From contig NZ_ML769312.1 in NCBI RefSeq assembly GCF_009720365.1, forward strand, positions 930,001 to 994,000: DNA of 64,000 nucleotides, written 5' to 3'. Below the pieces are notes generated by a model, which made no database searches, had not been told where the DNA came from, and was given only the letters and a program-made list of their open reading frames with translations. Made by a program: the position numbers and the translations under genes. The stretch is from Catellatospora paridis (GTDB lineage Bacteria > Actinomycetota > Actinomycetes > Mycobacteriales > Micromonosporaceae). Each line of letters starts with the position of its first letter. The stretch's first letter is position 1. Positions 10,135 to 32,889 of the stretch are shown here, one piece after another.

Positions 10135-10196
10135 GCCTCGGCGCACGCGTGCCGGCTGCCGGTGTTCCACTGCGGCGTGTCCGCGCGCCGGAGGTG

Positions 10197-10872: not shown

Positions 10873-10896
10873 GGGGGTGCCTCTCGGGGCGCAGGT

Positions 10897-10921
10897 GACG
10901 GTGACGGGGGGCGTCACCGTC
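10897..10921 (-). promoter_or_regulatory. Leader hairpin before the flavin reductase, overlapping a tiny Cys-containing ORF
   Basis: GACGGTGACG and its complement form a perfect 10-bp stem with a 5-base loop. An 8-codon ORF (MSAMRCRR, minus strand 10940 to 10914) ends inside the stem. A short ORF with a Cys codon overlapping a hairpin suggests attenuation or translational control, but the peptide is very short and lacks the RRHVD signature. Confidence 0.35.
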
Positions 10922-10973
10922 GACATCGCATTGCGCTCATGCCCCGACGCTAGCAGCGCGAAGCCGTAAAGTC

Positions 10974-14940: not shown

Positions 14941-15990
14941 TTACCGCGCCGGGGTGACGCCCTGGCGGCGGCGCTGTGCCGGGTCGGTGATCGAGGGCGG
15001 CTGGTAGCCGGCGTCGGCCTGGTTGAGGATCGTGCCGGGCGGCACGATCTCGTCGATGCGGTCCAGCACGTCCTGCGACAGGGTCAGCTTCTCCGCGCCG
15101 AGCTGCGACTCCAGGTGCTCCAGGGTGCGCGGGCCGATGATCGCCGAGGTGACCGCCGGGTGCTCCAGCACGAACGCGAGCGCCAGGTGGATCAGCGACA
15201 ACCCCGCCTCGGCGGCGAGTTCGGTCAGCTGCTCCACCGCCGCCAGCTTCACCTGGTTGGCGGGCAGTGCCGGGTCGAAGCGGCCCGGCTGGCGGGCGGC
15301 ACGCAGCGAGATCGGCTCGGTCAGGTCGCGGTGGTAGCGGCCGGACAGCCAGCCGCCCGCGAGCGGGCTCCACGGGATGACCGCCAGGCCGTGCTGCTGC
15401 GCCACCGGCAGCACCTCACGCTCGATGCCGCGGTTGAGGATCGAGTACGGCGGCTGCTCGCTCACGACCCGCTCCCGCCCGCGGCGCTGCGCGATCCACT
15501 GGCCCTCCACGATCGCCGACGGCGGGAAGCACGAGGTGCCGATGTAGCGGATCTTGCCCTGCCGCACCAGGTCGGTCAGCGCGCCCAGGGTCTCGTCGAA
15601 GTCGGTGTCGGTCTCCGGCCGGTGCACCTGGTACAGGTCGATGTGGTCGGTCTGCAGGCGGCGCAGGCTGTGCTCCACCTCCCGGACGATCCAGCGCCGG
15701 GAGTTGCCGAAGTGGTTGACGTCGTCGCCCATCCGGTGGTGCACCTTGCTGGCCAGGAACACGTCGTCGCGACGGCCGCCCGCCAGCGCCTTGCCGACGA
15801 CGATCTCCGACTCGCCCTGCGAGTAGGTGTCGGCGGTGTCGACGACGTTGATGCCCGCGTCCAGCGCCCGGTGGATGATCCGGATGCCGTCCTCGTGGTC
15901 GGGGTTGGCGCGCGCGCCGAAGTTCATCGCGCCCAGGGTCAGCGGGCTGACCTTCACACCGGTGCGACCGAAGGGCCGGTACTGCGTCAT
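14941..15990 (-). CDS. Aldo/keto reductase (last gene of the sulfur operon)
   Basis: 349 residues of an (alpha/beta)8 NADPH-dependent reductase. 'NVVDTADTYSQGESE' has the catalytic Asp/Tyr of the family, 'FLASKVHHRMGDD' the Lys-containing strand, 'IDLYQVHRPE' the His strand, and 'SAIIGPRTLEHLESQL' the cofactor-binding end. It reduces aldehydes or ketones. It follows the monooxygenase gene by 15 bases with a weak GAGAAGAG site and precedes the terminator. As desulfonating monooxygenases release an aldehyde, it may reduce that product; this is inference from position. Confidence 0.88.
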   Translation of the reverse strand: MTQYRPFGRTGVKVSPLTLGAMNFGARANPDHEDGIRIIHRALDAGINVVDTADTYSQGESEIVVGKALAGGRRDDVFLASKVHHRMGDDVNHFGNSRRWIVREVEHSLRRLQTDHIDLYQVHRPETDTDFDETLGALTDLVRQGKIRYIGTSCFPPSAIVEGQWIAQRRGRERVVSEQPPYSILNRGIEREVLPVAQQHGLAVIPWSPLAGGWLSGRYHRDLTEPISLRAARQPGRFDPALPANQVKLAAVEQLTELAAEAGLSLIHLALAFVLEHPAVTSAIIGPRTLEHLESQLGAEKLTLSQDVLDRIDEIVPPGTILNQADAGYQPPSITDPAQRRRQGVTPAR

Positions 15991-16005
15991 GTGCTGCTCT
16001 TCTCG

Positions 16006-17355
16006 TCAGACCGCGGCAGGCTCGGCCGCGGTGGCGTACTGGCTGGCCGGGCGGGTCAGGCCCAGGTGGTCGCGCAGGGTGGTGCCGGTGTACTCGGTCC
16101 GGAACAGGCCGCGGCGGCGCAGTTCCGGCACGACGTGGTCGACGAAGACCTCCGCGCCGGACGGGAACATGTCCGGCATGATGTTGAAGCCGTCGGCGGC
16201 GCCGCCGAGGAACCACTCCTCGAGGGTGTCGGCGATCTGCTCCGGCGATCCGGCGACCAGGCGGTGTCCGGATCGGATGCGCCCGGCCAGCTGGCGGACC
16301 GTGAGCCGCTCCCGGCGCGCCAGGTTGATCTGGGCGTCGAAGAAGCCCCGCGAGCCGTTCTCGATCCGGCCGGCGTCGCCGATGAGGTGCCACGGCAGCT
16401 CTTCGTCGAGCTTGAGGTGCTTGCGGTCCAGCTGCAGCCGCTGCGCGACCTGGCCGAGCTGCGCGTCGAGGCCCTGGATCTCGTCGAGTTCGGCCTGGCG
16501 GGCCAGCGCCTCGGCCTCGGTGCTGCCGATGACCGTCGACAGCCCTGGCATGATCTTAATCGAGTCTGGGTCGCGCCCGCTGCCCGCGGCACGGGCCTTC
16601 ATCTCCGCGTAGAAGGCCTGCCCGTCTTCGAGGGTGGTCTGCGCCGTGAACACCGCGTCGGCGCGGCGGGCGGCCAGGGCCTTGCCGTGTTCGGAGGACC
16701 CGGCCTGCACGAGCACCGGGCGGCCCTGCGGCGAGCGGGGGATGTTCAGCGGTCCGCGTACCGCGAAGTGGGGGCCTTCGTGGTCGATGGTGTGCACCTT
16801 GGTCCGGTCGGCGAACACGCCGCGGGCCCGGTCCGCGATGATCGCGTCGTCCTCCCAGCTGTCCCAGAGCTTGACGGCGATGTCGACGAACTCCTCGGCG
16901 CGGCCGTAGCGGTCGTCGTGCACGGGCGCGCCGGTGAGCCCGAAGTTGCGGGCCGCGGCGTCGCCGGCGGTGGTGACGATGTTCCAGGCGGCCCGCCCGC
17001 CGGACAGGTGGTCCAGCGAGGCCAGCCGCCGGGCCAGGTTGTACGGGTCGTTGTAGCTGGTCGACGCGGTGGCGATGACTCCGATCCGCTCGGTGGCCAG
17101 CGCGATCGCGGTCAGCACGAGGGTCGGTTCCAGCCGCCCGCTCGGGCCGCCGCCGGGGTCTCCGGCCAGGGCGGGCCCGTCGGCGAGGAAGATCGCGTCG
17201 AGGGCGCCGCGTTCGGAGATCCGGGCGATGTGCTGGTAGTAGCCGATGTCGAGGTAGGACAGCGGGTCGACCTCGCCGTGACGCCAGGCCGAGCTGTGCC
17301 CGCCCAGCCCGAGGATGTTCATGCCGATGCTCATCTGCCGTGGCTTCGTGCCCAT
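16006..17355 (-). CDS. FMN-dependent LLM-class monooxygenase, NtaA/SnaA/DszA family
   Basis: 449 residues. The bacterial luciferase-like barrel is recognisable from 'YYQHIARISERGALDAIFLADGPAL', 'LATERIGVIATASTSYNDPYNLARRLASLDHLSGGRAAWNIVTT' and 'VLVQAGSSEHGKALAARRADAVF'. Family members use FMNH2 and O2 to cleave C-S or C-N bonds (DszA, DmoA, NtaA, B. subtilis YxeK and YtnJ). The start at 17355 has AAGGAG 7 bases upstream; the frame extends further but without family similarity. FMNH2 could come from the SsuE-type reductase two genes upstream. The substrate is unknown. Confidence 0.87.
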   Translation of the reverse strand: MGTKPRQMSIGMNILGLGGHSSAWRHGEVDPLSYLDIGYYQHIARISERGALDAIFLADGPALAGDPGGGPSGRLEPTLVLTAIALATERIGVIATASTSYNDPYNLARRLASLDHLSGGRAAWNIVTTAGDAAARNFGLTGAPVHDDRYGRAEEFVDIAVKLWDSWEDDAIIADRARGVFADRTKVHTIDHEGPHFAVRGPLNIPRSPQGRPVLVQAGSSEHGKALAARRADAVFTAQTTLEDGQAFYAEMKARAAGSGRDPDSIKIMPGLSTVIGSTEAEALARQAELDEIQGLDAQLGQVAQRLQLDRKHLKLDEELPWHLIGDAGRIENGSRGFFDAQINLARRERLTVRQLAGRIRSGHRLVAGSPEQIADTLEEWFLGGAADGFNIMPDMFPSGAEVFVDHVVPELRRRGLFRTEYTGTTLRDHLGLTRPASQYATAAEPAAV

Positions 17356-17491
17356 GGCGTGCTCCTTGCTGCTGAATGAGGTAGCCCTGGTGGGCACGGA
17401 ATCGGACGACGCCGCGTCGGCTCCGTCGCTCGCCCGCGGACGGGCGAGGGCCTCGGTCGCATCGCCTGCGACCGTCACCGGCGGGCGGCGG

Positions 17492-18700
17492 TCAGAACAG
17501 CCCGCTCAGCGGGGGCTGCTCACCGGTGAGGTGGTAGGCGCCCGCCGCTGCGGCCTTCCACAGGCGCGGGTTGTGGTTGGCGACCGTGCGGGCGTTGCGC
17601 CAGTGCCGGTCGAGGTTGTGCTCCCGGGCGACAGCCGAGCCGCCACCTACGTCGAACACGAGTTCCCCGGCCCGCAAGGCGGCGTCGGCGGCGACGTACT
17701 GCGCCTGGGCGACCTCGACCGAGGCCCGGACCAGCGCGTCCTCGGCGAGGTCGGCTGCCCAGGCGTCGTCGATCGCCTGCGCGGCGGCGAGCACGACCGC
17801 CTCGGCGGCGTACGCCCGCGCGGCGATCTCCCCCACCGCGAGCCGCACGTACGGGTCGTCCACGGCCCGCGCGGCGGTGCTGTGCTTGATCGGCCGGGCT
17901 CGGTCCCGGGCGAACGCGGTCGCGTCGCTCAGCGCGTCACGGGCGATGCCGGCCAGCACCGCGCCGAGGTAGAGCTGCAGGAACGCGGTCACCGGCGAGC
18001 GCCGGTCGCGGAAGCCGCGCCGGTCGCGCAGTTCGTGCGGGTGCACCACCAGATCGTCGAGGTCGGTGGTGCCGCTGGCGGTCAGCCGCTGGCCGATGGC
18101 GTCGAAGTCGTCGTGCAGCCGCAGCCCGGCGCGGTCGCGGGGCACGATGAACGAGACGGGCTGCCCGTCGTCGTCCAGCGCGGTGGCGCTGACCCAGTCC
18201 GCGAACAGGGATCCGGTGCTGTAGTACTTGCTGCCCGTGGCCCGGTAGTGCGCACCCTCGCGGGTGATCCGGGCGCTGATCGCCCCGTTCGCGCCGCCGA
18301 TCTCCCAGCCCGCGTTACCGACGACCTGGCCTGCCATCAGGCGGCAGAACCAGGTCTTGCGCTCGGCGTCGGAGCCCTGCGCGACCAGCCCTTCCACGAA
18401 CGAGAAGTCGGGCCGCAGCGCCTGGGCGACGTTGGAGTCGGCCGCGGCCAGGTCGACGACGAAGCGGATGGTGTCGCGCACGCTCGCACCCGCGCCGCCG
18501 TACGCCTCGGGGATCCGGAAGGCGAACAGCTGCTCCTTCGCCACCGCCCGGACCTGGTCGTACGGCAGCTCGCGCAGCCGTTCGCGGTCGGCCGCACCGG
18601 CCCGGATCTGCGCGAGCACCGGCGCGGCCCGCTCATGCAGCACCCGTGCGGTCAAAGCCGCGGTCGTCGGTTCGACGAGGTCCGGTTCTGTGGTCGGCAC
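17492..18700 (-). CDS. Acyl-CoA-dehydrogenase-fold monooxygenase (SfnC/DszC-like)
   Basis: 402 residues with the three-part acyl-CoA dehydrogenase fold: N-terminal helices ('IPEAYGGAGASVRDTIRF'), a beta domain ('GSKYYSTGSLFADWVSATALDDDG', 'GQRLTASGTTDLDDLVV') and a C-terminal four-helix bundle ending 'DRHWRNARTVANHNPRLWK'. That C-terminal motif is typical of DszC/SfnC-type flavin monooxygenases rather than true dehydrogenases. It would oxygenate sulfur with FMNH2. The GTG start is one base after the SsuE-type gene's stop. A homologue starts the divergent operon at 26213. Confidence 0.83.
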   Translation of the reverse strand: MPTTEPDLVEPTTAALTARVLHERAAPVLAQIRAGAADRERLRELPYDQVRAVAKEQLFAFRIPEAYGGAGASVRDTIRFVVDLAAADSNVAQALRPDFSFVEGLVAQGSDAERKTWFCRLMAGQVVGNAGWEIGGANGAISARITREGAHYRATGSKYYSTGSLFADWVSATALDDDGQPVSFIVPRDRAGLRLHDDFDAIGQRLTASGTTDLDDLVVHPHELRDRRGFRDRRSPVTAFLQLYLGAVLAGIARDALSDATAFARDRARPIKHSTAARAVDDPYVRLAVGEIAARAYAAEAVVLAAAQAIDDAWAADLAEDALVRASVEVAQAQYVAADAALRAGELVFDVGGGSAVAREHNLDRHWRNARTVANHNPRLWKAAAAGAYHLTGEQPPLSGLF

Positions 18701-18701
18701 G

Positions 18702-19253
18702 CTAGGCCGCCTGCAGGGAGCGCGCGACGAGGGCGTCGGTGAAACCGGTGACGACGGCGTCCAGGAACGCCTGCCCGGTGGCGTCGAGCAGGATGCCGCC
18801 GCCGTCGGTGTCGACGATGGTCTTGTCGTGGATGAAGCACCCGGCCACGATGTGCGTCGCACCCATGCTGGACAGCACCGGCCGCAGCGCGTAGTCGATG
18901 GCCAGCACGTGGGCCGGGGTGCCGCCGGTGGCCAGCGGCAGCACCACCTTGCCGGCCAGCGCGTACTGCGGCAGCAGGTCGAGCAGCGACTTCAGGACGC
19001 CGCTGTAGGCGGCCTTGTACACGGGCGTCGCGACGATGACGCCGTCGGCGGCCGCGATCGCCGCGCCGACGGACAGAATCGCCGGGTGGTGCACGTCCGC
19101 GCCGAGCAGCGCCTCGGCGGGCAGGTCCCGGACCGCGAGGTGGCGCACCTCGTATGAGCCGGACCCGGGCAGGTTGTCGGCGACGTGCCGCAGCACGCGC
19201 GCGGTCTTCGAGGTGGGTGACGGCGATCCGGAGATCGCGAGGATCGAGGGCAT
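18702..19253 (-). CDS. ssuE: NAD(P)H-dependent FMN reductase, SsuE-type
   Basis: 183 residues of the flavodoxin-like FMN reductase family: 'ILAISGSPSPTSKTARVL' phosphate loop, 'DGVIVATPVYKAAYSGVLKSLLDLLP' flavin-binding loop, and 'PLATGGTPAHVLAIDYALRPVL', a stretch typical of SsuE. It supplies FMNH2 to the monooxygenases in the operon. AGGAGG lies just before the ATG, 12 bases after the upstream monooxygenase stop. Placement between two oxygenase genes supports partnership with both. Confidence 0.9.
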   Translation of the reverse strand: MPSILAISGSPSPTSKTARVLRHVADNLPGSGSYEVRHLAVRDLPAEALLGADVHHPAILSVGAAIAAADGVIVATPVYKAAYSGVLKSLLDLLPQYALAGKVVLPLATGGTPAHVLAIDYALRPVLSSMGATHIVAGCFIHDKTIVDTDGGGILLDATGQAFLDAVVTGFTDALVARSLQAA

Positions 19254-19264
19254 GGGGTTCCTCC

Positions 19265-20668
19265 TCAGCCGACGGGCACGGGTTCGGGCGTGGCCGCCGC
19301 GAGCGCGGCGGGATCGCGGTAGCGGGCCCCGGGGTGCACGTCGGGCAGCCGGGGCCGCCCGGCCCCGAACAGCCGCTCGCGCAGGGTCTCGCCGTCGTCG
19401 TAGGACGCCCGGTAGCGGCCGCGTCGCCGCAGCTCCGGGACGATCAGCTCGATGAAGTCCGCGGCGGTGCCGGGGGTCAGGAACTGGCGCAGGTTGATCC
19501 CGTCGATGCCGCCGTGGTCGACCCAGCGCTCCAGCTCGTCGGCGACGACCTTGGGCGTGCCCGCGACGAAGAACGGCCCGCGGTCGAACCCGCCGATCCG
19601 CTCGAGCACTTCGCCGACGGTCTGCTCGGGCCGGAACCGGCTGCCCAGGCGCTGGTGGCCGGGGTCCTGCCGGGCGATGATGTCGGCGACGCGCTCGTCG
19701 GGGCGGTAGCGGGTCCAGTCCAGCCCGGCTCCGGCGTGCGCGAGGTGGCCTTCCACGCTGCGCAGGCGCCGGAACTCGGCGACCTTGCGGTCCACCTCGG
19801 CGTCGGTGCGGCCGACGATGACCGCCGCGCCCGCGAGGAACTTGATGTCGTCGCGACCGCGGCCGTACGCGACCGCCCGGTCCTTGGTGTCCTCGATGTT
19901 CGCGCGCACGTCGTCGAGGGAGAACCCGCCGACGAACACCGCCTCGGCGTGCCTGGCCGCGAAGCCGCGGCCCGCGTCCGACGCCCCGGCCTGGTAGATC
20001 ACCGGCGTACGCTGCCGGGACGGCTCGCTCAGGTGCGGCCCGGCGACCCGGTAGTGCTCGCCGACGTGGTTGATGTAGCGGACCTTCGCCGGGTCGGTGT
20101 AGACCCGGTTGTCGCGGTCGCGGATCACCGCGTCGTCGTCCCAGGACCCTTCCCACAGCTTGTAGAGCACGTCGAGGTACTCGTCGGCGATGGCGTATCG
20201 CTGGTCGTGCTCGACCTCGTCGGCCAGGCCGAAGTTGCGGGCCGCGTTGGGCAGGTAGGAGGTGACCACGTTCCACGCCACCCGGCCCTTGGTCAGGTGG
20301 TCCAGCGTGGACATGCGCCGCGCGAACGCGAACGGCGGCTCGTAGGTGGTGGAGAACGTGGCGGCGAAGCCCAGGTTGCGGGTCACCGCCGCCATGGCCG
20401 GGATGAGCAGCAGCGGATCGTTGTTCGGGATCTGCACGGCCTCGCGCAGCGCGGTCTGCGGCCCGCCCCGGAATCCGTCGTACGCGCCGATGACGTCGGC
20501 CAGGAACACCGCGTCGAAGGTCCCGTACTCCAGCAGCTGGGCCAGCTCGGTCCAGAACTCGAGGTCGTTGAAGCGGTGCCGGTTGTTGTCGGGGTGCACC
20601 CACAGGCCGTGGGAGATGTGCCCGACGCAGTTCATCTCGAACAGGTTGACGTGGATCTGCTTAGGCAC
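19265..20668 (-). CDS. FMN-dependent LLM-class monooxygenase, NtaA/DszA/DmoA family (second)
   Basis: 467 residues. The luciferase-like barrel shows 'LLEYGTFDAVFLADVIGAYD', 'FAATFSTTYEPPFAFARRMSTLDHLTKGRVAWNVVTSY', 'NFGLADEVEHDQRYAIADEYLDVLYKLWEGSW' and 'IYQAGASDAGRGFAARHAEAVF'. The subfamily holds DszA (dibenzothiophene sulfone) and DmoA (dimethyl sulfide) enzymes. The GTG start overlaps the ATPase gene by 8 bases. It is clearly diverged from the other LLM enzyme in the operon, so the two probably act on different substrates or in successive steps. Confidence 0.87.
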   Translation of the reverse strand: MPKQIHVNLFEMNCVGHISHGLWVHPDNNRHRFNDLEFWTELAQLLEYGTFDAVFLADVIGAYDGFRGGPQTALREAVQIPNNDPLLLIPAMAAVTRNLGFAATFSTTYEPPFAFARRMSTLDHLTKGRVAWNVVTSYLPNAARNFGLADEVEHDQRYAIADEYLDVLYKLWEGSWDDDAVIRDRDNRVYTDPAKVRYINHVGEHYRVAGPHLSEPSRQRTPVIYQAGASDAGRGFAARHAEAVFVGGFSLDDVRANIEDTKDRAVAYGRGRDDIKFLAGAAVIVGRTDAEVDRKVAEFRRLRSVEGHLAHAGAGLDWTRYRPDERVADIIARQDPGHQRLGSRFRPEQTVGEVLERIGGFDRGPFFVAGTPKVVADELERWVDHGGIDGINLRQFLTPGTAADFIELIVPELRRRGRYRASYDDGETLRERLFGAGRPRLPDVHPGARYRDPAALAAATPEPVPVG

Positions 20669-22361
20669 GCGGGCCTCCCTGGGTTGCGGGGGTGAGCACG
20701 GCCGACAGCAGCGTGCGGGTGTACTCGTGCGCGGGCGCGGTGAAGATCTGGCGTACGTCGCCGGACTCGACGACCTCGCCGTCCTTCATCACCAGCACCC
20801 GGTCGCTGACGTGGTGGATCACGCCCAGGTCGTGCGAGATGAACAGGTACGCGATGCCGAGCCGTTCCTGCAGGTCGGCGAGCAGGTCCAGGATCTGCGC
20901 CTGGACCGAGACGTCCAGCGCCGACACCGGCTCGTCGCAGACGATCAGCTCCGGCTCCGGGGCCAGCGCGCGGGCGATCGCCACCCGCTGCCGCTGGCCG
21001 CCGGAAAGCTCCAGCGGCCGCCGCTTGAGGTGCTCCGCGCCGAGGCTGACCTGTTCGAGCAGCTCGACGGCGCGGTCGCGGCGCTGCCCGGCCCGCAGGC
21101 CGGTGACGCCGATCGCCTCGCCGAGCACCCGCTCGACGGTATAGCGGGGGTCGAACGAGCTGAGCGGGTCCTGGTAGACGATCTGCAGCCGGCGGCGCTC
21201 GGCGCGCTTGTCCGCCGGGGTGAGGCTGTCCCAGCGGCGGCCGCGCACGCTGACGTGCCCGCCGTCGGCCCGTTCCAGGCCCAGGATCAGCCGGGCGGTC
21301 GTCGTCTTGCCCGATCCGGACTCCCCGACGATGCCGAGCGTCTCCCCCGGGTGCACCGCGAAGGACACTTCACGGACCACGGTCCGGTTGACCTTGTCCG
21401 GTCCGGCGTACGCCTTGACCAGTCCTTCGGCGGCGACGATCGGGGTGGTGCGGTCGAACTCGCGTGGGGTGGCCCGGATGACGGCGGCGGGCGCGGACGA
21501 CAGCCGGGTGCCCTTGGCGTGCGTGGCGGGCACTGCCGCCAGCAGCGCCTTCGTGTATCGGTCGCGCGGATCCTCCAGCACCTGCCGGGTCGGGCCCTGC
21601 TCGACGATGCGCCCGGCGCGCATCACCGCGACCCGGTCGGCCAGCCGCGCGACCACGGACAGGTCATGGCTGACCACGAGCATGCCCGCGTCGCCGCGCT
21701 TGAGTTCGCCGAGCAGTTCCAGGATCTGCGCCTGTACGGTGGCGTCCAGGGCGGTGGTGGGCTCGTCGGCGATGACCAGCCGCGGTTCACAGGCGATCGC
21801 GGAGGCGATCAGCGCCCGCTGCCGCAGGCCGCCGGAGAGCTGGTGCGGATACTGCTGCGCGCGCAGTTCCGGCTCGGGGACCCCGACGGCCCGCAGCAGC
21901 TCGATCACCTTCTCACCGCGGGCCGCTTTGGCCAGCGTGGTGTGCAGGGCGAGCGGTTCGGCGATCTCCCGGCCGACCGGGCGCAGCGCGTCGAGCGAGC
22001 TGAGCGCGTCCTGCAGCACGAAGCCGACCTGTGCGCCGCGGATGCCGCGCCAGTGGCGTTCGGTGTTGCGGGAGACGTCCCGGCCGTCGAACTCCAGCGT
22101 CGCGGCACGCACCCGGGCGCCGTACCCGGTGAGCCCGACCAGGGTGCGGGCCGTGACGCTCTTGCCCGACCCGGACTCGCCGACCAGCGCCAGGCACTCC
22201 CCCGGCGCGATCGTGAACGAGACCCCGTCGACGACGTCCACGCCGTGCCTGCCGAACGACACCCGCAGGTCGTCGACGTTCACCAGCGGCGCGGCCGTCG
22301 TTTCCGCGGCCGGTACGGCCGATGCGCCGATGTGCCCCGGCGCGGTGCTGCGGGCGCTCAT
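20661..22361 (-). CDS. Opp/Dpp-type ABC transporter, fused double ATPase
   Basis: 566 residues containing two complete ATPase domains. The first has Walker A 'GESGSGKSVTAR', signature 'LSGGLRQRALIA' and 'VIADEPTTALD'; the second has 'GESGSGKTTTAR', '[12 protein letters not shown]' and 'VCDEPVSALD'. This is a natural OppD-OppF fusion. ATG overlaps the permease stop by 4 bases. It energises import of peptide-like or nickel-like ligands together with the two permeases and the binding protein upstream. Setting and co-operonic oxygenases suggest an organosulfur ligand. Confidence 0.9.
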   Translation of the reverse strand: MSARSTAPGHIGASAVPAAETTAAPLVNVDDLRVSFGRHGVDVVDGVSFTIAPGECLALVGESGSGKSVTARTLVGLTGYGARVRAATLEFDGRDVSRNTERHWRGIRGAQVGFVLQDALSSLDALRPVGREIAEPLALHTTLAKAARGEKVIELLRAVGVPEPELRAQQYPHQLSGGLRQRALIASAIACEPRLVIADEPTTALDATVQAQILELLGELKRGDAGMLVVSHDLSVVARLADRVAVMRAGRIVEQGPTRQVLEDPRDRYTKALLAAVPATHAKGTRLSSAPAAVIRATPREFDRTTPIVAAEGLVKAYAGPDKVNRTVVREVSFAVHPGETLGIVGESGSGKTTTARLILGLERADGGHVSVRGRRWDSLTPADKRAERRRLQIVYQDPLSSFDPRYTVERVLGEAIGVTGLRAGQRRDRAVELLEQVSLGAEHLKRRPLELSGGQRQRVAIARALAPEPELIVCDEPVSALDVSVQAQILDLLADLQERLGIAYLFISHDLGVIHHVSDRVLVMKDGEVVESGDVRQIFTAPAHEYTRTLLSAVLTPATQGGPRA

Positions 22362-23224
22362 GACCGGCCCTCCGTGCGGCGGCGCAGGTCGCGGCCGACG
22401 ACGGTGACCGACAGCACGGTCAGGGTGATCGCCAGGCCGGGCACGATGACCATGAACGGGTCGTTGGAGATGTACTGGATGCCCAGCGAGAGCATGTTGC
22501 CCCACTCCGGCGCGGGCGGCTTGGTGCCCAGGCCGAGGAAGCTGAGCGACGCGCCCGCGCCGATGGCGTTGCCGACGCCGATCGTGGCCAGCACGACCAG
22601 CGGCTTGAACGCGTTGGGCAGGACGTGCCGGCGGATCACCGCCGACCGGCGCAGCCCCAGCGCGGTGGCCGCCTCGACGTAGGTCGCGTCGCGGACCACG
22701 TGCGTCTGCGCGCGGATCATCCGGGCGTAGTACGGCACGCTGGCGAACGCGACCGCGAACAGCGCGTTGACCGTGCCGGTGCCCAACAGCGTGATGACGA
22801 CCAGCGCCAGCAGCAGGTCCGGGATGGACAGGGCCACGTCGATCAGCCGCATCACCGCGCCTTCGACGTACCGGTTGGCCAGGCCCGCGAGCAGGCCGAT
22901 CGCGGAGCCGAGGGCGACCGCGATCCCGGTCGCGCCCAGGCCCATCACCAGCGACGAGCGCGCCCCGTAGACCATCCGGGCCAGGGTGTCCCGGCCAGAC
23001 TGGTCGGTGCCGAGCAGGTGCTCGGCACCCGGCGGGACGAACGCGCCCGCGGTGCTGATCTCCAGTGGATCGTGGGAGGTGAGCAGGCCCGGCGCGACGG
23101 CGGCGACGGCGAGCAGGCCGAGGAAGGCCAGCCCCAGCGCGACACCGGGCCGGAAGGCGCGCCGCCGGCTCGCGGCATGGCCACGCCGCTCGGGCAGGAC
23201 GGCGGGGACGGTGATGGCGGTCAT
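22358..23224 (-). CDS. Opp/Dpp-type ABC transporter permease (DppC-like)
   Basis: 288 residues with an N-terminal helix, the periplasmic 'HLLGTDQSGRDTLARMVYGARSSL' motif that is diagnostic of DppC/OppC, and the docking loop 'EAATALGLRRSAVIRRHVLPNAFKPL'. It has about six helices. It overlaps both neighbours by the ATGA arrangement and pairs with the DppB-like permease. Confidence 0.9.
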   Translation of the reverse strand: MTAITVPAVLPERRGHAASRRRAFRPGVALGLAFLGLLAVAAVAPGLLTSHDPLEISTAGAFVPPGAEHLLGTDQSGRDTLARMVYGARSSLVMGLGATGIAVALGSAIGLLAGLANRYVEGAVMRLIDVALSIPDLLLALVVITLLGTGTVNALFAVAFASVPYYARMIRAQTHVVRDATYVEAATALGLRRSAVIRRHVLPNAFKPLVVLATIGVGNAIGAGASLSFLGLGTKPPAPEWGNMLSLGIQYISNDPFMVIVPGLAITLTVLSVTVVGRDLRRRTEGRS

Positions 23225-24153
23225 GCGGTCACCACTCTCGGGTCGATGAGGCCGTAGACGATGTCGACGACGAGGTTGACGACCACGTACACCGCGGCCG
23301 CGAACAGCACCACGCCGAGCACCAGCGGGATGTCCTTGGTGGTGGTGGCGGTGAGCATGAGCTGCCCGACGCCGCGGCGCACGAACAGCGTCTCGGTGAT
23401 GACCGCGCCGCCGAGCAGGCCGCCGATGACGAACCCGGACATGGTCACGATCTGGATGAGCGCGTGCCGCAGGGCGTGCCGCAGCCGCACCGCCGCGTCG
23501 CGCATTCCGCGGCTGCGGGCGGTGAGGATGAACGGCTGTTCGAGGACCTCCTCCAGCTCGGTACGCAGCACCTGCGACAGCGTCGCCGCGATCGGCAGCG
23601 CGAGCGTGAACGTCGGCAGGACCAGCGCGGACACCCCGTCGTTGCCCGACACCGGGAACCAGCCGGCCTGGAACGAGAACACGATGAGCAGCACCAGGCC
23701 CAGCACGAACGTCGGGAACGAGGTGAGCACCAGTTCGGTGCCCGAGGCCGCGGAGCGGATCCACGGCCGCCTCCTGGCGGTGAGGACCGCGGTCCCCACC
23801 GCCAGGACGACCGCGACCAGCGCGGCTGACAGCGCCAGCTGAACCGTCTCGCCCAGTTGCTCCCCGATCGCCGACGCCACGGGTACGCGCTGCTGGTAGC
23901 TCTCGCCCAGGTCCCCTTGCAGCAGCCGGCCCAGATAGCCGAGATACTGCTGCCACAGGGGCTGGTCGAGGCCGTAGTCGGCGCGGACCCGGTCGAGCAC
24001 GGCCTGGGTCGGGTTGGCCCCGTCCCCGGCCACCGTCGCCAGGGCCGCGTCGCCGGCGGTGACGTGCAGCGCGACGAACGACAGCGTCGCCGCGCCCCAC
24101 AGCACCCCGAGACCGGCGGCGAACCGGGTGGCGATGCGTTTCAGCTGGCGCAT
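23221..24153 (-). CDS. Opp/Dpp-type ABC transporter permease (DppB-like)
   Basis: 310 residues: an N-terminal helix, a periplasmic segment with 'RVRADYGLDQPLWQQYLGYLGRLLQGDLGESY' typical of DppB/OppB, then the membrane core with 'TARSRGMRDAAVRLRHALRHALIQIV'. It starts 2 bases after the stop of the binding-protein gene. With the DppC-like partner it forms the channel. Confidence 0.9.
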   Translation of the reverse strand: MRQLKRIATRFAAGLGVLWGAATLSFVALHVTAGDAALATVAGDGANPTQAVLDRVRADYGLDQPLWQQYLGYLGRLLQGDLGESYQQRVPVASAIGEQLGETVQLALSAALVAVVLAVGTAVLTARRRPWIRSAASGTELVLTSFPTFVLGLVLLIVFSFQAGWFPVSGNDGVSALVLPTFTLALPIAATLSQVLRTELEEVLEQPFILTARSRGMRDAAVRLRHALRHALIQIVTMSGFVIGGLLGGAVITETLFVRRGVGQLMLTATTTKDIPLVLGVVLFAAAVYVVVNLVVDIVYGLIDPRVVTA

Positions 24154-24155
24154 GT

Positions 24156-25829
24156 CTACTTCTCCAGCCAGGAGTAGGCGAAGTACGGCGTGCCGTGGGA
24201 GGTGTCGACGACGACGTCGTGCAGCTTGGCGCTGAACGCCCACAGCACGGAGTTGTCGTAGACGGGGAAGCCGGGCACGAGCTCGGCCAGGCGCTGCTGG
24301 GACTTGCCGTACAGCTCGGCCAGCTTGGCCTTGTCGCCGGTGCGGCGGGCCTCCTCCAGCCAGCCGTCGAGCTGGGCGTCGCTGATCCGGGAGGTGTTCT
24401 GGCCCAGCCGCTTCTCGTTGGGGATGCTGAACGTGGCGTACTTGATGTAGAGCACGTCCGGGGTGTTGGTGTGCCAGACGCCCGCGGACAGGTCGTAGTC
24501 GCCGTTGTAGCGCCGGGTGGTCAGCTGCGCGCTGGGCAGCAGCTCGACGTTGACCTTGATGCCGACGGCCTTCACCTGCGCCTGGACCAGGTCGAAGATC
24601 GGGCTGATGGTCGCGGTCTGAGCCACCGGCCACTGCACCAGCAGGGTCTTGCCGTCCTTGGTGCGGTAGCCCTCGGCGTCCCGACCCGTCCAGCCGGCCT
24701 TGTCCAGCAGCTCGTTGGCCTGCTTCAGGTCGTGCCCGCGCAGTTTCACCTCGGGGTCGTAGTACTTGGTGACCCGGTCGACGAAGCTGGTCGCGAGCTG
24801 CCGCTCACCGAACCCGACGGTCTTGACCAGCGCCTCCCGGTCGACCGCGGAGACGAACGCCTGCCGGATCGCGAGGTCGTCGAATGGGGCGCGGGAGGTG
24901 TTGAACTCGATGGTGTACGGCAGCCCGATCCGGTTGACGTTGGAGTACACCAGGTTCGGGTCCGTCTTCACCGCCGCCGCGTTCTGCGCCGGCACGTACC
25001 CGGTGGCCTGGTACTGGTTGCTGACCAGCGAGTTGAACCGCACGGCGTCCTGCCCGACCCAGGACACGTTGATCCCGTCCAGGTGCGCCGCGCCGGAGTA
25101 GCCGAGCTGCGGCGGCCCCCAGTCGTAGCCCGCCCGCTTGGCGAACGTCGCGCCCTGCGTCTTGGTGTACCCGGTCAGCACGAACGGGCCGGAGCCCACC
25201 GGCTTCTCGCACAGCTGCGCCGGGGTGCTCTCCTTGATCGCCTTGGGCGACAGCAGGCCCAGCCAGCCCTGCGCCAGCACGTCCAGGAACGGCGTGTACG
25301 GCTGCTTGAGCGTCACCTCCAGCGTGTACGGGTCGACGATGCGGCTGCTCTCGTAGGGCGCGATGTACGGCCCGGCCAGCGGGGAGCGGGTGTCCGGGTC
25401 GAGCATGTGCTCGAAGTTCGCGACCACGGCGGCCGCGTCGAACACCGCCCCGTCGCTGAACGTGACGCCCTGGCGCAGGTGGAAGGTGTAGACCTTGCCG
25501 TCTGCGGAGATCTCCCATTTCTCCGCCAGCCATGGACCCGGGTTGCCGTCGGTGTCGAGGTAGACGAGGTTGTCGGTCAGGATGCGCCCGAAGATCTGCT
25601 CCACGTCGGAGGAGATGGCGTGCGGGTCGAGGCACAGCGGGTCGGCCGACATCGACAGGTTCAGGATGCCCCCGGCGACCGGGGAGCCCTTGCCGTTGAG
25701 CACGTCCCCGGCGGTACGCGACGACGCGTCGGCACTGGCCGGGGTGGTGCCGCCGCTGGAGCCGCAGGCGGCCAGGGCGCCGATCGCGACGGTCGCGGCG
25801 AGCAGGCGGGTGGACAGGAGGAAACGCAC
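24156..25829 (-). CDS. Opp/Dpp-type ABC transporter substrate-binding lipoprotein
   Basis: 557 residues. The signal ends in lipobox 'ALAAC'. The mature part is an SBP_bac_5 protein, with 'GRILTDNLVYLD', 'YTFHLRQGVTFSDGAVFDAAAVVANFEHMLD' and 'FNTSRAPFDDLAIRQAFVSAVDREALV'. GTG at 25829 is chosen because the basic n-region and hydrophobic core begin there and GAAGGG precedes it. It is the first large gene of the operon and lies 164 bases behind the Cys leader peptide. The ligand is unknown; gene order with FMN-dependent C-S lyases suggests an organosulfur compound such as an S-substituted cysteine, sulfone or sulfonate. Confidence 0.88.
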   Translation of the reverse strand: MRFLLSTRLLAATVAIGALAACGSSGGTTPASADASSRTAGDVLNGKGSPVAGGILNLSMSADPLCLDPHAISSDVEQIFGRILTDNLVYLDTDGNPGPWLAEKWEISADGKVYTFHLRQGVTFSDGAVFDAAAVVANFEHMLDPDTRSPLAGPYIAPYESSRIVDPYTLEVTLKQPYTPFLDVLAQGWLGLLSPKAIKESTPAQLCEKPVGSGPFVLTGYTKTQGATFAKRAGYDWGPPQLGYSGAAHLDGINVSWVGQDAVRFNSLVSNQYQATGYVPAQNAAAVKTDPNLVYSNVNRIGLPYTIEFNTSRAPFDDLAIRQAFVSAVDREALVKTVGFGERQLATSFVDRVTKYYDPEVKLRGHDLKQANELLDKAGWTGRDAEGYRTKDGKTLLVQWPVAQTATISPIFDLVQAQVKAVGIKVNVELLPSAQLTTRRYNGDYDLSAGVWHTNTPDVLYIKYATFSIPNEKRLGQNTSRISDAQLDGWLEEARRTGDKAKLAELYGKSQQRLAELVPGFPVYDNSVLWAFSAKLHDVVVDTSHGTPYFAYSWLEK

Positions 25830-25860
25830 GGTGAAGCCCTTCGCAAGGGGTAGGGGTGTG

Positions 25861-25982
25861 CCGAGACGGCCGCCCTCGTGTCGTCGGGGGCGGCTCGGAG
25901 ATCGGAGTCGAGGAGCGGCGCGGGCCACGGCTGCGATGCCGTCCGGCGCGAAGCCGCGAGAAGGTCAGGCCTGAGGCAGGCC
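25861..25982 (-). promoter_or_regulatory. Leader-region hairpins, candidate attenuator
   Basis: Between the leader peptide and the binding-protein gene there are two hairpins on the minus strand. GGCCTG-CCT-CAGGCC (25968-25982) begins 11 bases after the leader stop. A longer GC-rich stem (GCCGCCC at 25869-25875 with GGGCGGC at 25888-25894, extended by CCGAG/CTCGG) lies next. This is the layout expected for ribosome-mediated attenuation. No T-run is visible, so Rho- or translation-dependent control is equally possible. Confidence 0.5.
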
Positions 25983-25993
25983 GGTGCGCGGCG

Positions 25994-26065
25994 TCAACAG
26001 CCGCTGCTGCACACCCGTTGGAAGTCCACATGGCGCCGTTGGGTCAGGCGCAGGCTTCGCTTCAT
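25994..26065 (-). CDS. Cysteine-containing leader peptide (RRHVD type)
   Basis: A 23-residue peptide, MKRSLRLTQRRHVDFQRVCS then SGC. The 'TQRRHVDFQRVCS' core matches the small 'putative leader peptide' class that precedes sulfur and cysteine genes in actinobacteria, usually written RRHVDLxRV with Cys near the end. Cys codons are at positions 19 and 23, the last just before TGA. It lies upstream of the Opp-type importer and its oxygenases. By analogy, ribosome stalling at Cys codons under cysteine shortage would allow expression of the operon. Confidence 0.8.
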   Translation of the reverse strand: MKRSLRLTQRRHVDFQRVCSSGC

Positions 26066-26109
26066 GGCTAGGGACGGTAGGAGCGCGCAGGCAAGATCGT
26101 CCAGGCTTT

Positions 26110-26125
26110 TGTGACCTGGATCACA
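26110..26125. promoter_or_regulatory. Perfect CRP/GlxR-type palindrome
   Basis: TGTGACCTGGATCACA fits TGTGA-N6-TCACA exactly. It lies in the divergent promoter region, 45 bases upstream of the leader-peptide start and 88 before the plus-strand oxygenase start. A cAMP-receptor-type regulator could link sulfur scavenging to carbon state. Confidence 0.65.
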
Positions 26126-26135
26126 CAGTTCTCCG

Positions 26136-26156
26136 GTATATCCCATAGAATTAATA
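26136..26156. promoter_or_regulatory. Sulfur motif site C in the divergent promoter
   Basis: GGTATATCCCATAGAATTAAT shares TATnTCCCATAGRA with sites A and B. It is AT-rich and lies between the two divergent sulfur operons, so it could serve either direction. Confidence 0.55.
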
Positions 26157-26212
26157 TGAATTATCTGCTCGATGGATTGTGCTGGCCCACCTGCGCGTGC
26201 CAGCATCCGTTC

Positions 26213-27457
26213 ATGGTCAGCTCCACACCGGACCTCGTTTCGGCACCGCTCGATGCCCCGTCCACTCCCGACATCGCCCACGCGCACGTCATCGCCGACG
26301 ACGCCGAGGCGCTGCGGGTCGCGGCGGCGCTCGCCGCCGAGTTCGCCGCCGACGCGGCCGCCCGCGACGCCGGCCGCCGCCTGCCCCGCGCCGAGCTCGA
26401 CCGGCTGAGCGCGAGCGGGCTGCTGGCCATCACGGTGCCCGCCGAACACGGCGGCGCCGACGCGAGCACGGCCACCGTCACCGAGGTGTTCCGGCTGCTG
26501 GCCGCCGCCGACCCGAACATCGCCCAGATCCCGCACAGCCACTTCGTCTACGTCAACGTGCTGCGCCACAACGGCGCCGCGGAGCAGCGCAAGTTCTTCT
26601 TCGCCGAGGTGCTCGCCGGAAAGCGGATCGGCAACGCCCAGTCCGAGACCGGCACCAGGCACCTGATGGACTACCGCACCCGGCTCACCCCCGCCGGCGA
26701 CGGCTACCGGCTCGACGGCACGAAGTTCTACACCACCGGCGCGCTGTTCGCCGACTGGCTGGCCGTGCTGGCCCGCGCCGATGACGAGAAGCTGCACGTC
26801 GCGTACACCCCCGCCGACTCCCCCGGCGTCAGCGTCGTCGACGACTGGAACGGCATGGGCCAGCGCACCACCGCCAGCGGCACCGTGCACCTCGACGGCG
26901 TCGCGATCCCCGCCGACAGGGTCGTGCCACACCACCTGACCTTCACCGGCCCGCAGCTCTACGGCGCGTTCGCGCAGATCGTGCACGCCGCGATCGACGT
27001 CGGCATCGCCGAGGGCGCGCTGGCCGACGCCGCCGAGTTCGTGCGTACCAGGACCCGACCATGGTTCGAGGCCGGTGTCGAGACCGCCGCCGAGGACCCG
27101 CTGCTCGTGCAGCGCTTCGGTGAGCTGGACCTGCAACTGCGGGCCGCCCGCGCGCTGCTGGCCCATGCCGCCGCCGAGATCGACCGCGCCGCCGTCGACC
27201 TGACCGACGACACCGCCGCCACCGCGTCGCTGGCCGTCGCCGCCGCGAAGGCGTACGCCGACCGCGCCGCCAACGAGATCAGCAGCGCCCTGTTCGAGGT
27301 CAGCGGCACCCGCTCCAGCCTCGACGACTACAACCTGCACCGGCACTGGCGCAACGCCCGCACGCACACCCTGCACGACCCCGTCCGCTGGAAGATCCAG
27401 CACCTCGGCCGGGCCGCCCTCACCGGCACCGCCCCACCACGCCACGGCCTGCTCTGA
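26213..27457 (+). CDS. Acyl-CoA-dehydrogenase-fold monooxygenase (SfnC/DszC-like), divergent operon
   Basis: 414 residues: N-terminal helices with 'LLAITVPAEHGGADASTATVTEVFRLLAAADPNIAQIPHS'-type DszC signature, beta domain 'LDGTKFYTTGALFADWLAV' and 'GMGQRTTASGTVHLDGV', helical end 'NLHRHWRNARTHTLHDPVRWK'. FMNH2-dependent oxygenation of an organosulfur compound is expected. It is a clear homologue of the gene at 17492. No good ribosome site precedes 26213; an in-frame ATG at 26156 would add 19 residues including three Cys and may act as a leader (see findings). Start choice is therefore uncertain. Confidence 0.82.
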   Translation: MVSSTPDLVSAPLDAPSTPDIAHAHVIADDAEALRVAAALAAEFAADAAARDAGRRLPRAELDRLSASGLLAITVPAEHGGADASTATVTEVFRLLAAADPNIAQIPHSHFVYVNVLRHNGAAEQRKFFFAEVLAGKRIGNAQSETGTRHLMDYRTRLTPAGDGYRLDGTKFYTTGALFADWLAVLARADDEKLHVAYTPADSPGVSVVDDWNGMGQRTTASGTVHLDGVAIPADRVVPHHLTFTGPQLYGAFAQIVHAAIDVGIAEGALADAAEFVRTRTRPWFEAGVETAAEDPLLVQRFGELDLQLRAARALLAHAAAEIDRAAVDLTDDTAATASLAVAAAKAYADRAANEISSALFEVSGTRSSLDDYNLHRHWRNARTHTLHDPVRWKIQHLGRAALTGTAPPRHGLL

Positions 27458-27472
27458 CCCGCCCACCAACGT

Positions 27473-27529
27473 CGGTCCGGGGCCGCGACGCCGCGAGTTC
27501 GGCGACAACAGCGTCACGGCCCCGGACCG
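27473..27529 (+). other. Long stem-loop between the SfnC-like gene and ssuD
   Basis: CGGTCCGGGGCCG (27473-27485) pairs perfectly with 27517-27529. The 31-base loop contains a smaller CGCCG/CGGCG hairpin. It lies inside the 102-base spacer of this operon. It may terminate part of the transcripts or protect the upstream message. Confidence 0.6.
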
Positions 27530-27559
27530 CGACCAACCCGAACAGCACGGAGACCGCAC

Positions 27560-28714
27560 ATGAGCCTCACCTTCCACTGGTTCCTGCCCACCTACGGCGA
27601 CAGCCGGTTCATCGTCGGCGGCGGCCACGGCCTGCCCGCGGGCGTGGCCGGCGGCGCGCGCCCGGCGACCCTGGCCTACCTCGGCCAGATCGCCCGCACC
27701 GCCGAGCAGCTGGGCTTCGTCGGTGCGCTCACGCCGACCGGCGCGTGGTGCGAGGACGCCTGGCTGTCCACCGCCATGCTCACCGAGGTCACCGAGCGGC
27801 TGAAGTTCCTCGTCGCGTTCCGTCCCGGCCTGCTGTCACCGACCCTGGCCGCGCAGATGGCCGCCACCTTCCAGCGCCACTCCAACGGACGCCTGCTGCT
27901 CAACGTCGTCGTCGGCGGCGAGACCCACGAGCAGCGGGCGTACGGCGACTGGCTCGACAAGGACGCCCGCTACGCCCGCGCCGACGAGTTCCTGCACGTC
28001 ACGCGTTCGCTGTGGCGCGGCGGCAGCGTCGACTTCACCGGCGAGCACCACCGCATCGAGGGCGCGACCATCCCGCGGGTGCCCGACCCGGTGCCGCCGA
28101 TCTACTTCGGGGGCTCGTCGAAGGCCGCCGGCCCGGTCGCGGCAAAGCACGCCGACGTCTACCTCACCTGGGGCGAGCCGCCCGCGCAGGTCGCCGGCAA
28201 GCTCGACTGGATCCGCAAGCTCGCCGCCGAGGAGGGCCGGGAGCTGCGTTACGGCATCCGGTTGCACGTCATCGCCCGCGACACCGCCGACGAGGCCTGG
28301 GCGCAGGCCCGCAAACTGCTCGAAGGCATCAGCGACGACGACATCGCCGCGGTGCAGGCGGGCCTGGCCCGCAGCGAGTCCGAGGGGCAGAAGCGCATGC
28401 TGGCCCTGCACGGCGGCAAGCGGGACAGCCTGCAGATCGCGCCGAACCTGTGGGCGGGCGTCGGCCTGGTCCGCGGCGGCGCGGGCACCGCGCTGGTCGG
28501 CAGCCACACCGAGATCGCCGACCGCATCGCCGAGTACGCCGACCTCGGCATCAGCGAGTTCATCCTCTCCGGACACCCGCACGTCGAGGAGGCGTACTGG
28601 TTCGGCGAGGGGGTGCTGCCGATCCTGCGCGACCGCGGCCTGTGGACGCACCCGGCCGGCGACCCGGCGCGCGAGCTACCGAAGATCCCCTTCGCCGGCG
28701 CACAGTCCCGTTAG
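27560..28714 (+). CDS. ssuD: FMNH2-dependent alkanesulfonate monooxygenase (SsuD-like)
   Basis: 384 residues, the SsuD length. 'LTFHWFLPTYGDSR' start, 'GFVGALTPTGAWCEDAWLS' with the conserved active-site Cys region, 'FLVAFRPGLLSPTLAAQMAATFQRHSNGRLLLNVVVGG', 'YFGGSSKAAGPVAAKHADVYLTWGEPP' and 'GTALVGSHTEIADRIAEYADLG' are all SsuD signatures. It splits alkanesulfonates into aldehyde and sulfite. It is unlinked to the ssuACB transporter at 3 kb but shares the sulfur motif. FMNH2 would come from SsuE at 18702 or the reductase at 10330. Confidence 0.92.
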   Translation: MSLTFHWFLPTYGDSRFIVGGGHGLPAGVAGGARPATLAYLGQIARTAEQLGFVGALTPTGAWCEDAWLSTAMLTEVTERLKFLVAFRPGLLSPTLAAQMAATFQRHSNGRLLLNVVVGGETHEQRAYGDWLDKDARYARADEFLHVTRSLWRGGSVDFTGEHHRIEGATIPRVPDPVPPIYFGGSSKAAGPVAAKHADVYLTWGEPPAQVAGKLDWIRKLAAEEGRELRYGIRLHVIARDTADEAWAQARKLLEGISDDDIAAVQAGLARSESEGQKRMLALHGGKRDSLQIAPNLWAGVGLVRGGAGTALVGSHTEIADRIAEYADLGISEFILSGHPHVEEAYWFGEGVLPILRDRGLWTHPAGDPARELPKIPFAGAQSR

Positions 28715-32799: not shown

Positions 32800-32843
32800 G
32801 TGCTGCCTTCCGTTTTGCAATACACTCGACATGCTAAACGCCG

Positions 32844-32858
32844 GTGAAAACATTTCAC
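32844..32858. promoter_or_regulatory. Probable TetR operator
   Basis: GTGAAA-ACA-TTTCAC is a perfect inverted repeat in the 90-base space between the divergent hydrolase and TetR genes. Wider half-sites TTTTGCAATAC and GTATTGTCAAA flank it. Confidence 0.65.
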
Positions 32859-32889
32859 AATGCAGTCGTATTGTCAAAGGGGTCGCAGC

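Follow-up and report, generated by a model that had tools for sequence, protein, structure and literature searches.

A probable organosulfur-scavenging locus with an Opp-type importer and a candidate cysteine-sensing leader in Catellatospora paridis

Introduction

Most of the sulfur in soil is organic, and it is largely an open question which importers supply the many flavin-dependent oxygenases that act on C-S bonds. This question is raised by a locus in a 64-kb window (the whole stretch of DNA analysed) within the 9.0 Mb genome of Catellatospora paridis, where an importer of the Opp/Dpp type is encoded together with two NtaA/DmoA-family monooxygenases, oxygenases of the SfnB type, the flavin reductase SsuE and an aldo/keto reductase (AKR). 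What does such an importer take up, and do all of these enzymes serve it? Our reading, to which we give a probability of roughly 0.7, is that of a sulfur-limitation locus that would import a polar organosulfur compound, from which FMNH2-dependent oxygenases would strip the sulfur, the enzymes being modular. Three independent lines link the importer to sulfur, namely the enzyme families, a leader peptide of the cysteine type and the proximity of related importers to luciferase-like monooxygenase (LLM) genes in other phyla. Because of these, a role in sulfur scavenging with an oxygenase-linked importer, which an earlier sequence-only reading of this DNA had proposed, is well supported at the level of families and neighborhoods.

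Organization of the locus

The proteins of the window were assigned with Pfam and NCBIfam models, the curated cut-offs being applied for the latter. The solute-binding protein of the importer is abbreviated SBP, and the leader is an upstream open reading frame (uORF).

24156..25829, minus strand: solute-binding lipoprotein (SBP) of the Opp/Dpp/Nik class (SBP_bac_5, Pfam 281 bits; lipobox LAAC)
23221..24153, minus strand: importer permease B, Opp2B/NikB-like (BPD permease; gap of 2 after the SBP gene)
22358..23224, minus strand: importer permease C, Opp2C/NikC-like (BPD permease; overlap of 4 with permease B)
20661..22361, minus strand: importer ATPase with fused OppD and OppF halves (two ABC_tran stretches; overlap of 4 with permease C)
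19265..20668, minus strand: LadA-like, an NtaA/DmoA-family FMNH2-dependent monooxygenase of the LadA/DmoA clade (TIGR03860, 507.2 bits; overlap of 8 with the ATPase)
18702..19253, minus strand: SsuE, NADPH-dependent FMN reductase (TIGR03567, 212.1 bits; gap of 11)
17492..18700, minus strand: SfnB-like, a divergent SfnB/DszC-like flavin oxygenase of acyl-CoA-dehydrogenase (ACAD) fold (TIGR04022, 320.8 bits; gap of 1)
16006..17355 (or start at 17478), minus strand: CmoJ-like, an NtaA/DmoA-family monooxygenase of the YtnJ/MoxC clade (TIGR03860, 533.1 bits)
14941..15990, minus strand: AKR (Pfam Aldo_ket_red, 260 bits; gap of 15)
26204..27457 (start uncertain, the ORF opening at 26111), plus strand: SfnB-family oxygenase of the divergent operon (TIGR04022, 547 bits)
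27560..28714, plus strand: SsuD-like alkanesulfonate monooxygenase of the divergent operon (TIGR03565, 463.3 bits)
25994..26065, minus strand: Cys-ended leader uORF of 23 codons, peptide MKRSLRLTQRRHVDFQRVCSSGC (NF042936 match)
26110..26125, no strand: CRP-like palindrome TGTGACCTGGATCACA in the divergent promoter region

The minus-strand series from 25829 to 14941 comprises nine tightly packed genes, where the sequence-only reading had counted eight, and the whole set is also intact in Catellatospora vulcania (L013). The overlaps or tiny gaps described earlier are indeed the rule (gaps of 1-15 bases, overlaps of 4-8), with the sole exception of the CmoJ-like gene, which is preceded by a gap of 136 bases if it starts at 17355 and of 13 bases if it starts at 17478. 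The Opp/Dpp-type importer (an SBP_bac_5 protein, two BPD permeases and a fused OppD-OppF ATPase), two different NtaA-family monooxygenases, SsuE and the AKR had all been recognized correctly. The oxygenases then called DszC/SfnC-like are present under the NCBIfam name SfnB family, the divergent one above the cut-off and the operon one below it. Likewise, the SsuD assigned to the divergent operon is an SsuD-like gene that falls below the cut-off of its model. Neither the leader uORF nor the CRP-like palindrome had been noted in that reading.

A cysteine-ended leader ahead of the importer

How would such an operon be coupled to sulfur supply? The leader uORF (MKRSLRLTQRRHVDFQRVCSSGC) stands 164 bases upstream of the SBP gene start and carries the motif R-R-H-V-D with Cys at its end. 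It matches NF042936, the Ms4527A family of Cys-rich leaders, with an E value of 1e-8 and 34.6 bits, short of the cut-off of 45. On its sequence it is a conserved short Cys-ended ORF upstream of sulfur genes, and this holds in five importer loci (the window, L013, L014, L140 and L142), where the leader precedes the same importer at the same position and with the same motif. The peptide is identical in the window, C. vulcania and C. methionotrophica (L014) despite 1-5 nucleotide differences per pair, of which at most one per pair lies outside third codon positions. Variants occur in L140 (MKRSLRLVQRRYVDFLRVCSCGC) and L142 (MNRSLRLVRRRFVDFLRVCSAGC), and the sequence of L015 ends before the leader position.

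When the C. paridis genome was searched with NF042936 (150 of 281 candidates scored), five matches were obtained, three of them with E below 0.1, and the window leader was the best. The second (L104, C13, stop 5909; E 3.3e-4) precedes a nitrite/sulfite-reductase-type gene, which is under its cut-off, and cysH, which is over it. The third (L103, C11, stop 5702; E 0.02) precedes arylsulfatase-like and GldK/SenA-like genes, both under cut-off. These two ORFs are of the HVD/HID type, with a single Cys that lies near the end and is not terminal. On a Pseudonocardia plasmid (L096, about 15734-15817) an HVD-type leader ORF follows a sulfonate ABC importer and stands upstream of ROK-family and TauD/TfdA genes.

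In M. smegmatis, cysteine biosynthetic genes are reported to be under translation attenuation control (PMC13236596). The mode of action of the leader here would by analogy be that of its family, and the operon is most likely controlled by cysteine through it. An attenuator structure is not claimed, since no terminator-like site and no exceptional fold z-score was found (z-scores of leader RNA folding -0.15, -0.05, 1.13 and 1.10). Within the leader ORF, GAAGCC (26053-26058, minus strand) is complementary to GGCTTC (25833-25838, minus strand) just before the SBP start codon. This pairing is of a kind that a translation attenuator may use; it is short and possibly due to chance.

The promoter region holds a further element. 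The stretch that separates the leader uORF from the divergent SfnB gene contains TGTGACCTGGATCACA, a perfect palindrome of the CRP-like type; 0.01 such sites would be expected per window, and the 9.0 Mb genome has four perfect ones. L013 and L014 carry the pattern at the corresponding position, and L140 has it with one change.

Oxygenases, flavin reductase and reductase

Both NtaA-family enzymes score above the TIGR03860 cut-off of 279.7 bits, yet they belong to different clades. The solved structures nearest to the LadA-like enzyme are 3b9n, an 'alkane monooxygenase' (569 bits), and 6ak1, a dimethyl-sulfide monooxygenase (461 bits), which we take to be LadA and DmoA, respectively. The CmoJ-like enzyme is nearest to YtnJ/MoxC (357 bits), YtnJ being presumably the same as CmoJ. 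Against the TIGR04022 cut-off of 430.9 bits, the operon SfnB-like protein lies below with 320.8 and the divergent SfnB above with 547; the nearest solved structures of the former are 8cda and then DszC. SsuE exceeds its cut-off of 164.05 and the SsuD-like protein stays under its 518.2. The SfnG model TIGR04021 (cut-off 382.95) is passed by none of the SsuD-like (173 bits), LadA-like (81.4) and CmoJ-like (67.7) proteins.

The solved structure nearest to the AKR is 9wk1_D, a DON 3-epimerase chain. A second pair of NtaA-family and AKR genes occurs in the C. paridis genome (L105, 4837-10021), the proteins being 58% and 82% identical to those of the operon, and adjoins an NMT1-type binding protein and permease, a different importer.

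Conservation and modularity among related loci

Do all of these enzymes belong to the importer? The SfnB-like protein was used as query, which gave 370 relatives, and the best 80 loci were compared, 70 of them including at least 5 kb on both sides. A match to the NtaA family (at least 200 bits) lies within 5 kb in 70 of the 80, and a LadA-like match (at least 300 bits) in 66. The closest named relatives of the operon that were found are Catellatospora. The full gene order recurs in C. vulcania and part of it in L014, L015, L140, L141 and L142, a recurrence which argues that the arrangement is not due to chance. The importer has a patchy distribution in the Micromonosporaceae: of 61 genomes searched, 4 encode the SBP (E up to 1e-100), C. 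paridis among them, and the two further genomes drawn from the genus gave no such match.

Seven importer loci were compared (the window, L013, L014, L015, L140, L141 and L142), counts referring to the available stretches, with L015 beginning inside a permease. The LadA-like gene, among the most constant of the enzyme genes, follows that of the ATPase in six of the seven, at 86-96% identity in the five relatives; the SfnB-like gene is present in six, SsuE in four, the CmoJ-like gene in four and the AKR (above 50% identity) in two. The most constant unit, and on this evidence the core, is the importer with the LadA-like enzyme and an SfnB-type oxygenase. C. methionotrophica keeps the importer, SsuE, SfnB-like and CmoJ-like genes; a search of its available genome sequence gave no intact LadA-like or SfnB gene, and its locus has no AKR. 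There the LadA-like and SfnB proteins find their best counterparts in the CmoJ-like (36%) and SfnB-like (37%) genes, and in the locus the opening 41 codons of the SfnB ORF, which overlap the promoter region, can still be matched. That the LadA-like and SfnB genes are lost as a strict pair is a hint only, with the AKR also gone, one species concerned and the 41-codon match left. L141 (16.5 kb) has the importer and the LadA-like gene and neither the SfnB-like nor the CmoJ-like gene, and in L140 the latter two form a block in opposite orientation. Since enzymes are present or absent separately among relatives, the locus is better described as several sulfur modules with SsuE in common than as one pathway, and the sequence-only proposal that all oxygenases and the reductase handle one dedicated compound was not sustained.

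The importer branch and its partners

Which class of substrate would the importer carry? The best NCBIfam model of the SBP is TIGR04028 (222.6 bits, far under the cut-off of 468.5) and the second-best NikA (196.6 bits); nickel and peptide models likewise score it far under their cut-offs. In an alignment of 65 relatives (A1), Cys22 is almost invariant, and every one of the 65 is matched by both the TIGR04028 and the NikA model (E up to 1e-20). The structure prediction suggested earlier yielded a good AlphaFold2 model (mean pLDDT 90.5) and gave no ligand, as the PDB matches listed are a mixture of proteins that bind peptides, glutathione, nickel, opines and heme. A HMMER alignment that set the SBP against GsiB and other proteins was inspected for a peptide-binding Asp, and nothing firm emerged. 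Volatiles like dimethyl sulfide (DMS) would need no importer, and the presence of one therefore favors a polar substrate. Our best guess is a polar, amino-acid-like or small-peptide thioether or sulfone.

A search of plasmids with the SBP returned 178 records, all below 60% identity, and 14 regions from various genera were selected among them by hand. In 11 of these 14 hand-picked regions the surrounding 8-11 kb include LLM/NtaA genes; the three where none was seen nearby are from Caballeronia, Sinorhizobium meliloti and Deinococcus, and these absences are soft, the gene tables being incomplete. With the Deinococcus binding protein as control query, LLM genes were found in one of six regions, and that region looks identical to a Streptomyces cluster already in the sample. 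The closest content is that of Rhizobium gallicum, with Met-type ABC genes, two SfnB genes, a LadA-like LLM gene (48%), MetQNI and msuE, followed by the importer (an SBP 36% identical to that of the window, permeases and ATPase). In Komagataeibacter, a LadA-like gene (62%) is accompanied by an ACAD-family gene, ssuD and the gene of a flavin reductase. By sequence, then, the pairing of this importer branch with LLM genes recurs, also in other phyla. An amino-bearing substrate is weakly hinted at by GNAT genes, which occur in three of the 11 LLM-linked regions, and by the Met-type importer genes of the R. gallicum cluster.

It is tempting to generalize. The branch could be a widespread and functionally undescribed Opp class, specialized for organosulfur compounds and coupled to LLM C-S monooxygenases, in which the adjoining LadA-clade enzyme would cleave C-S bonds and not hydroxylate alkanes, with the Micromonosporaceae module placed under its own cysteine-sensing leader. 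This extension is tentative, and we put its chances somewhat short of even. If true, it cautions against annotating LadA-clade genes as alkane genes, and importers of this branch as peptide or nickel transporters.

A proposed mechanism and its alternatives

Families, operon structure, leader conservation and proximity in relatives are read directly from the DNA; from these we infer cysteine sensing, substrate uptake, the order of reactions and the role of the AKR. When charged tRNA-Cys is low, ribosomes would slow where the leader uORF has its Cys codons, and expression of the operon would follow, as its leader family suggests. The Opp-type importer, a class given by homology, would then take up the organosulfur compound and SsuE would supply FMNH2. 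The SfnB-type oxygenases, judged by their families, would convert a thioether sulfur to sulfoxide or sulfone, after which NtaA-family enzymes (chiefly the LadA-like and additionally the CmoJ-like one) would break the C-S bond to give a sulfinate, sulfenate or sulfonate and an aldehyde. From a sulfonate the SsuD-like enzyme would be expected to release sulfite, to be used in making cysteine; in loci that have the AKR, the aldehyde would be reduced by it. The add-on modules (SfnB-like with CmoJ-like; SfnB with SsuD-like; AKR) probably widen the substrate range.

Could the importer, every oxygenase and the reductase instead form one linear pathway for a single dedicated compound? The tight packing and the complete set in L013 would suit such a pathway, yet in C. 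methionotrophica neither an intact LadA-like or SfnB gene (in the genome sequence searched) nor an AKR (in the locus) was found, the 16.5 kb of L141 lack the SfnB-like and CmoJ-like genes, the corresponding block of L140 is inverted, the AKR is found in just two of seven importer loci, and the C. paridis genome has a second NtaA and AKR pair beside a different importer. We regard this pathway as unlikely, and rank above it, as the strongest alternative and still an improbable one, a salvage resembling the Cmo/Yxe system of Bacillus, in which an S-alkylcysteine or its peptide would be imported, sulfoxidised and dealkylated to yield cysteine and not sulfite. The affinity of the CmoJ-like enzyme to YtnJ/MoxC among solved structures, an importer class suited to amino-acid or peptide substrates, the GNAT genes near related importers (in 3 of the 11 regions with LLM genes) and an aldehyde product that would suit the AKR all speak for it. 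However, no N-acetyltransferase, deacetylase or CmoO-type gene is found among the 11 locus genes, and the CmoJ-like gene is present in only four of seven importer loci.

The remaining alternatives would divorce the importer from sulfur altogether. That the locus holds an ordinary peptide or nickel importer, with oxygenases in the operon by happenstance, agrees with NikA as second-best model, with the match of 65 of 65 A1 members to both the TIGR04028 and NikA models and with the 50 best fold matches listed, which are of that general class; it is very improbable given that those models score far under their cut-offs, that the importer branch lies near LLM genes in 11 of 14 loci and that the leader peptide stands directly ahead of the importer genes. 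Least probable of all is the breakdown of alkanes or xenobiotics by a LadA-like alkane hydroxylase and an aldehyde or ketone reductase, the sulfur genes being merely adjacent. The closest solved relative 3b9n and the nearness of the AKR to a DON 3-epimerase chain point that way, whereas in other phyla relatives of the LadA-like protein have SfnB, SsuD or flavin-reductase genes as neighbors, and the leader peptide is of the Cys type. Alkanes are also not expected to be taken up by an SBP importer.

Several observations nevertheless weigh against the sulfur-limitation reading itself. Four of its elements (the leader, the SBP, the SfnB-like and the SsuD-like proteins) are under curated cut-offs, and the nearest solved relative of the LadA-like enzyme bears the name alkane monooxygenase. 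No leader was recognized at L141, and the leader region has neither an intrinsic terminator nor an unusually stable fold. Weak matches need care, since NF042936 gave matches at E up to 10 in 9 of the 14 control genomes; none of them passed the cut-off. Ten of the 80 SfnB-relative loci have no nearby NtaA-family match. Opp permease pairs are found in only seven of the 80 (L013, L014, L018, L019, L020, L050 and L078), which means that SfnB-type oxygenases are usually not paired with such an importer. The fold of the SBP model does not tell peptide, nickel, opine and glutathione binders apart. Finally, the plasmid sample was hand-picked, its control is small and its gene tables are incomplete, and fused-length ATPase genes occur in control loci too, which makes this feature not specific.

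Comparison with known systems

The exact gene combination is not described in the literature searched, as the sequence-only reading had suspected; its parts are known, from clusters of the TIGR04027/TIGR04028 type and from Gordonia terrae C-6. The locus is not a categorically new system: the Opp importer is unusual but recurrent, and the leader peptide was unexpected. In the TIGR04027/TIGR04028 (KPN_01858/KPN_01854) clusters defined by NCBIfam, an Opp-type SBP is found with a luciferase-like monooxygenase; the SBP of the window is related to TIGR04028, and Opp permeases and an ATPase are shared. With 222.6 against 468.5 bits, however, the window SBP falls short of the TIGR04028 cut-off, and a LadA-like enzyme takes the place of the TIGR04027 enzyme. 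TIGR04027-like genes (229 and 247 bits against 413) occur with NtaA-family, SfnB-like and AKR genes in Mycolicibacterium hodleri (L020), which also has a near-TIGR04028 SBP (397 against 468.5), and in Arthrobacter (L019). Rhizobium NXC24 has an importer of the same branch as that of the window next to a cluster annotated as TIGR04028.

For G. terrae C-6, PMC3868597 describes GTC6_13080 as a putative FMNH2-dependent monooxygenase and numbers the ABC genes 13085-13100 consecutively with it, one of the GTC6_13085-13100 genes encoding a peptide ABC substrate-binding protein. GTC6_13080-13100 are up about 10-37 fold (reverse-transcription quantitative PCR) on benzothiophene compared with sulfate (PMC3868597). 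The likeness to the window is one of annotation.

Proteobacterial sulfur clusters with two SfnB genes and a LadA-like gene (Pseudomonas, Burkholderia, Rhizobium) share with the window an SfnB-type oxygenase beside a LadA-like enzyme. The latter is 43-51% identical to that of the window in 64 of the 80 loci, and higher in Catellatospora L013 and Dactylosporangium L015. R. gallicum adds msuE and a related Opp importer, and differs by its Met-type importer. Of the seven loci with Opp permease pairs, two are proteobacterial (L050 and L078), and leader pattern scans found none in proteobacterial SfnB/LadA-like loci.

For the oxygenases themselves, group D (ACAD-fold) Dms1-3 oxidise DMS to dimethyl sulfoxide and the sulfone (PMC13352529), and from their fold class Dms1/2 are presumably homologous to the proteobacterial SfnB proteins. 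On dibenzothiophene, an SfnB is up, likewise an acyl-CoA dehydrogenase and the next-numbered NtaA/DmoA protein (PMC11852219), and NtaA-type proteins are among those changed in Rhodococcus qingshengii (PMC8557817). Passages of PMC12581299, PMC12757645 and PMC7661421 did not bear on the argument, and the terms of the last included no peptide ABC transporter. The 4S pathway (DszABC/DszD) resembles the locus in combining an ACAD-fold S-oxygenase, an NtaA-family C-S monooxygenase and a flavin reductase, but no DszB desulfinase is found among the 11 genes of the locus, and similarity to DszC and DszA is distant. SsuEADCB shares SsuE, over its cut-off, and the SsuD-like enzyme, under it; an Opp-type importer stands in place of the SsuABC type.

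CmoJ cleaves an alkylcysteine sulfoxide to a sulfenate and an aldehyde (PMC10863075). The salvage of Bacillus with CmoO/CmoJ and YxeK thus has an NtaA-family C-S monooxygenase like the one nearest YtnJ/MoxC here, and differs by its N-acetyltransferase, deacetylase and CmoO, none of which is found among the 11 genes of the locus, to which the search was confined. The mycobacterial Ms4527A leaders (NF042936) are likewise short R-R-H-V-D ORFs that end in Cys upstream of sulfur genes; the window leader differs in preceding an organosulfur importer and oxygenase operon and in its score (34.6 against 45). Together, the natural gene losses between close species, one binding protein and one leader make up a concrete test set.

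Three minor observations may be added. On a contig labelled as a Chitinophaga pinensis metagenome-assembled genome (L058), which is possibly mis-binned, an SfnB-like gene is 62% identical to that of this actinomycete. In the window, the top NCBIfam model of an alpha/beta hydrolase (31960-33078, minus strand) is a macrolide esterase, with 178 bits against a cut-off of 420. About 4 kb past the operon end, a tRNA-Cys gene (10196-10269) adjoins the gene of a Flavin_Reduct-domain protein (10333-10926).

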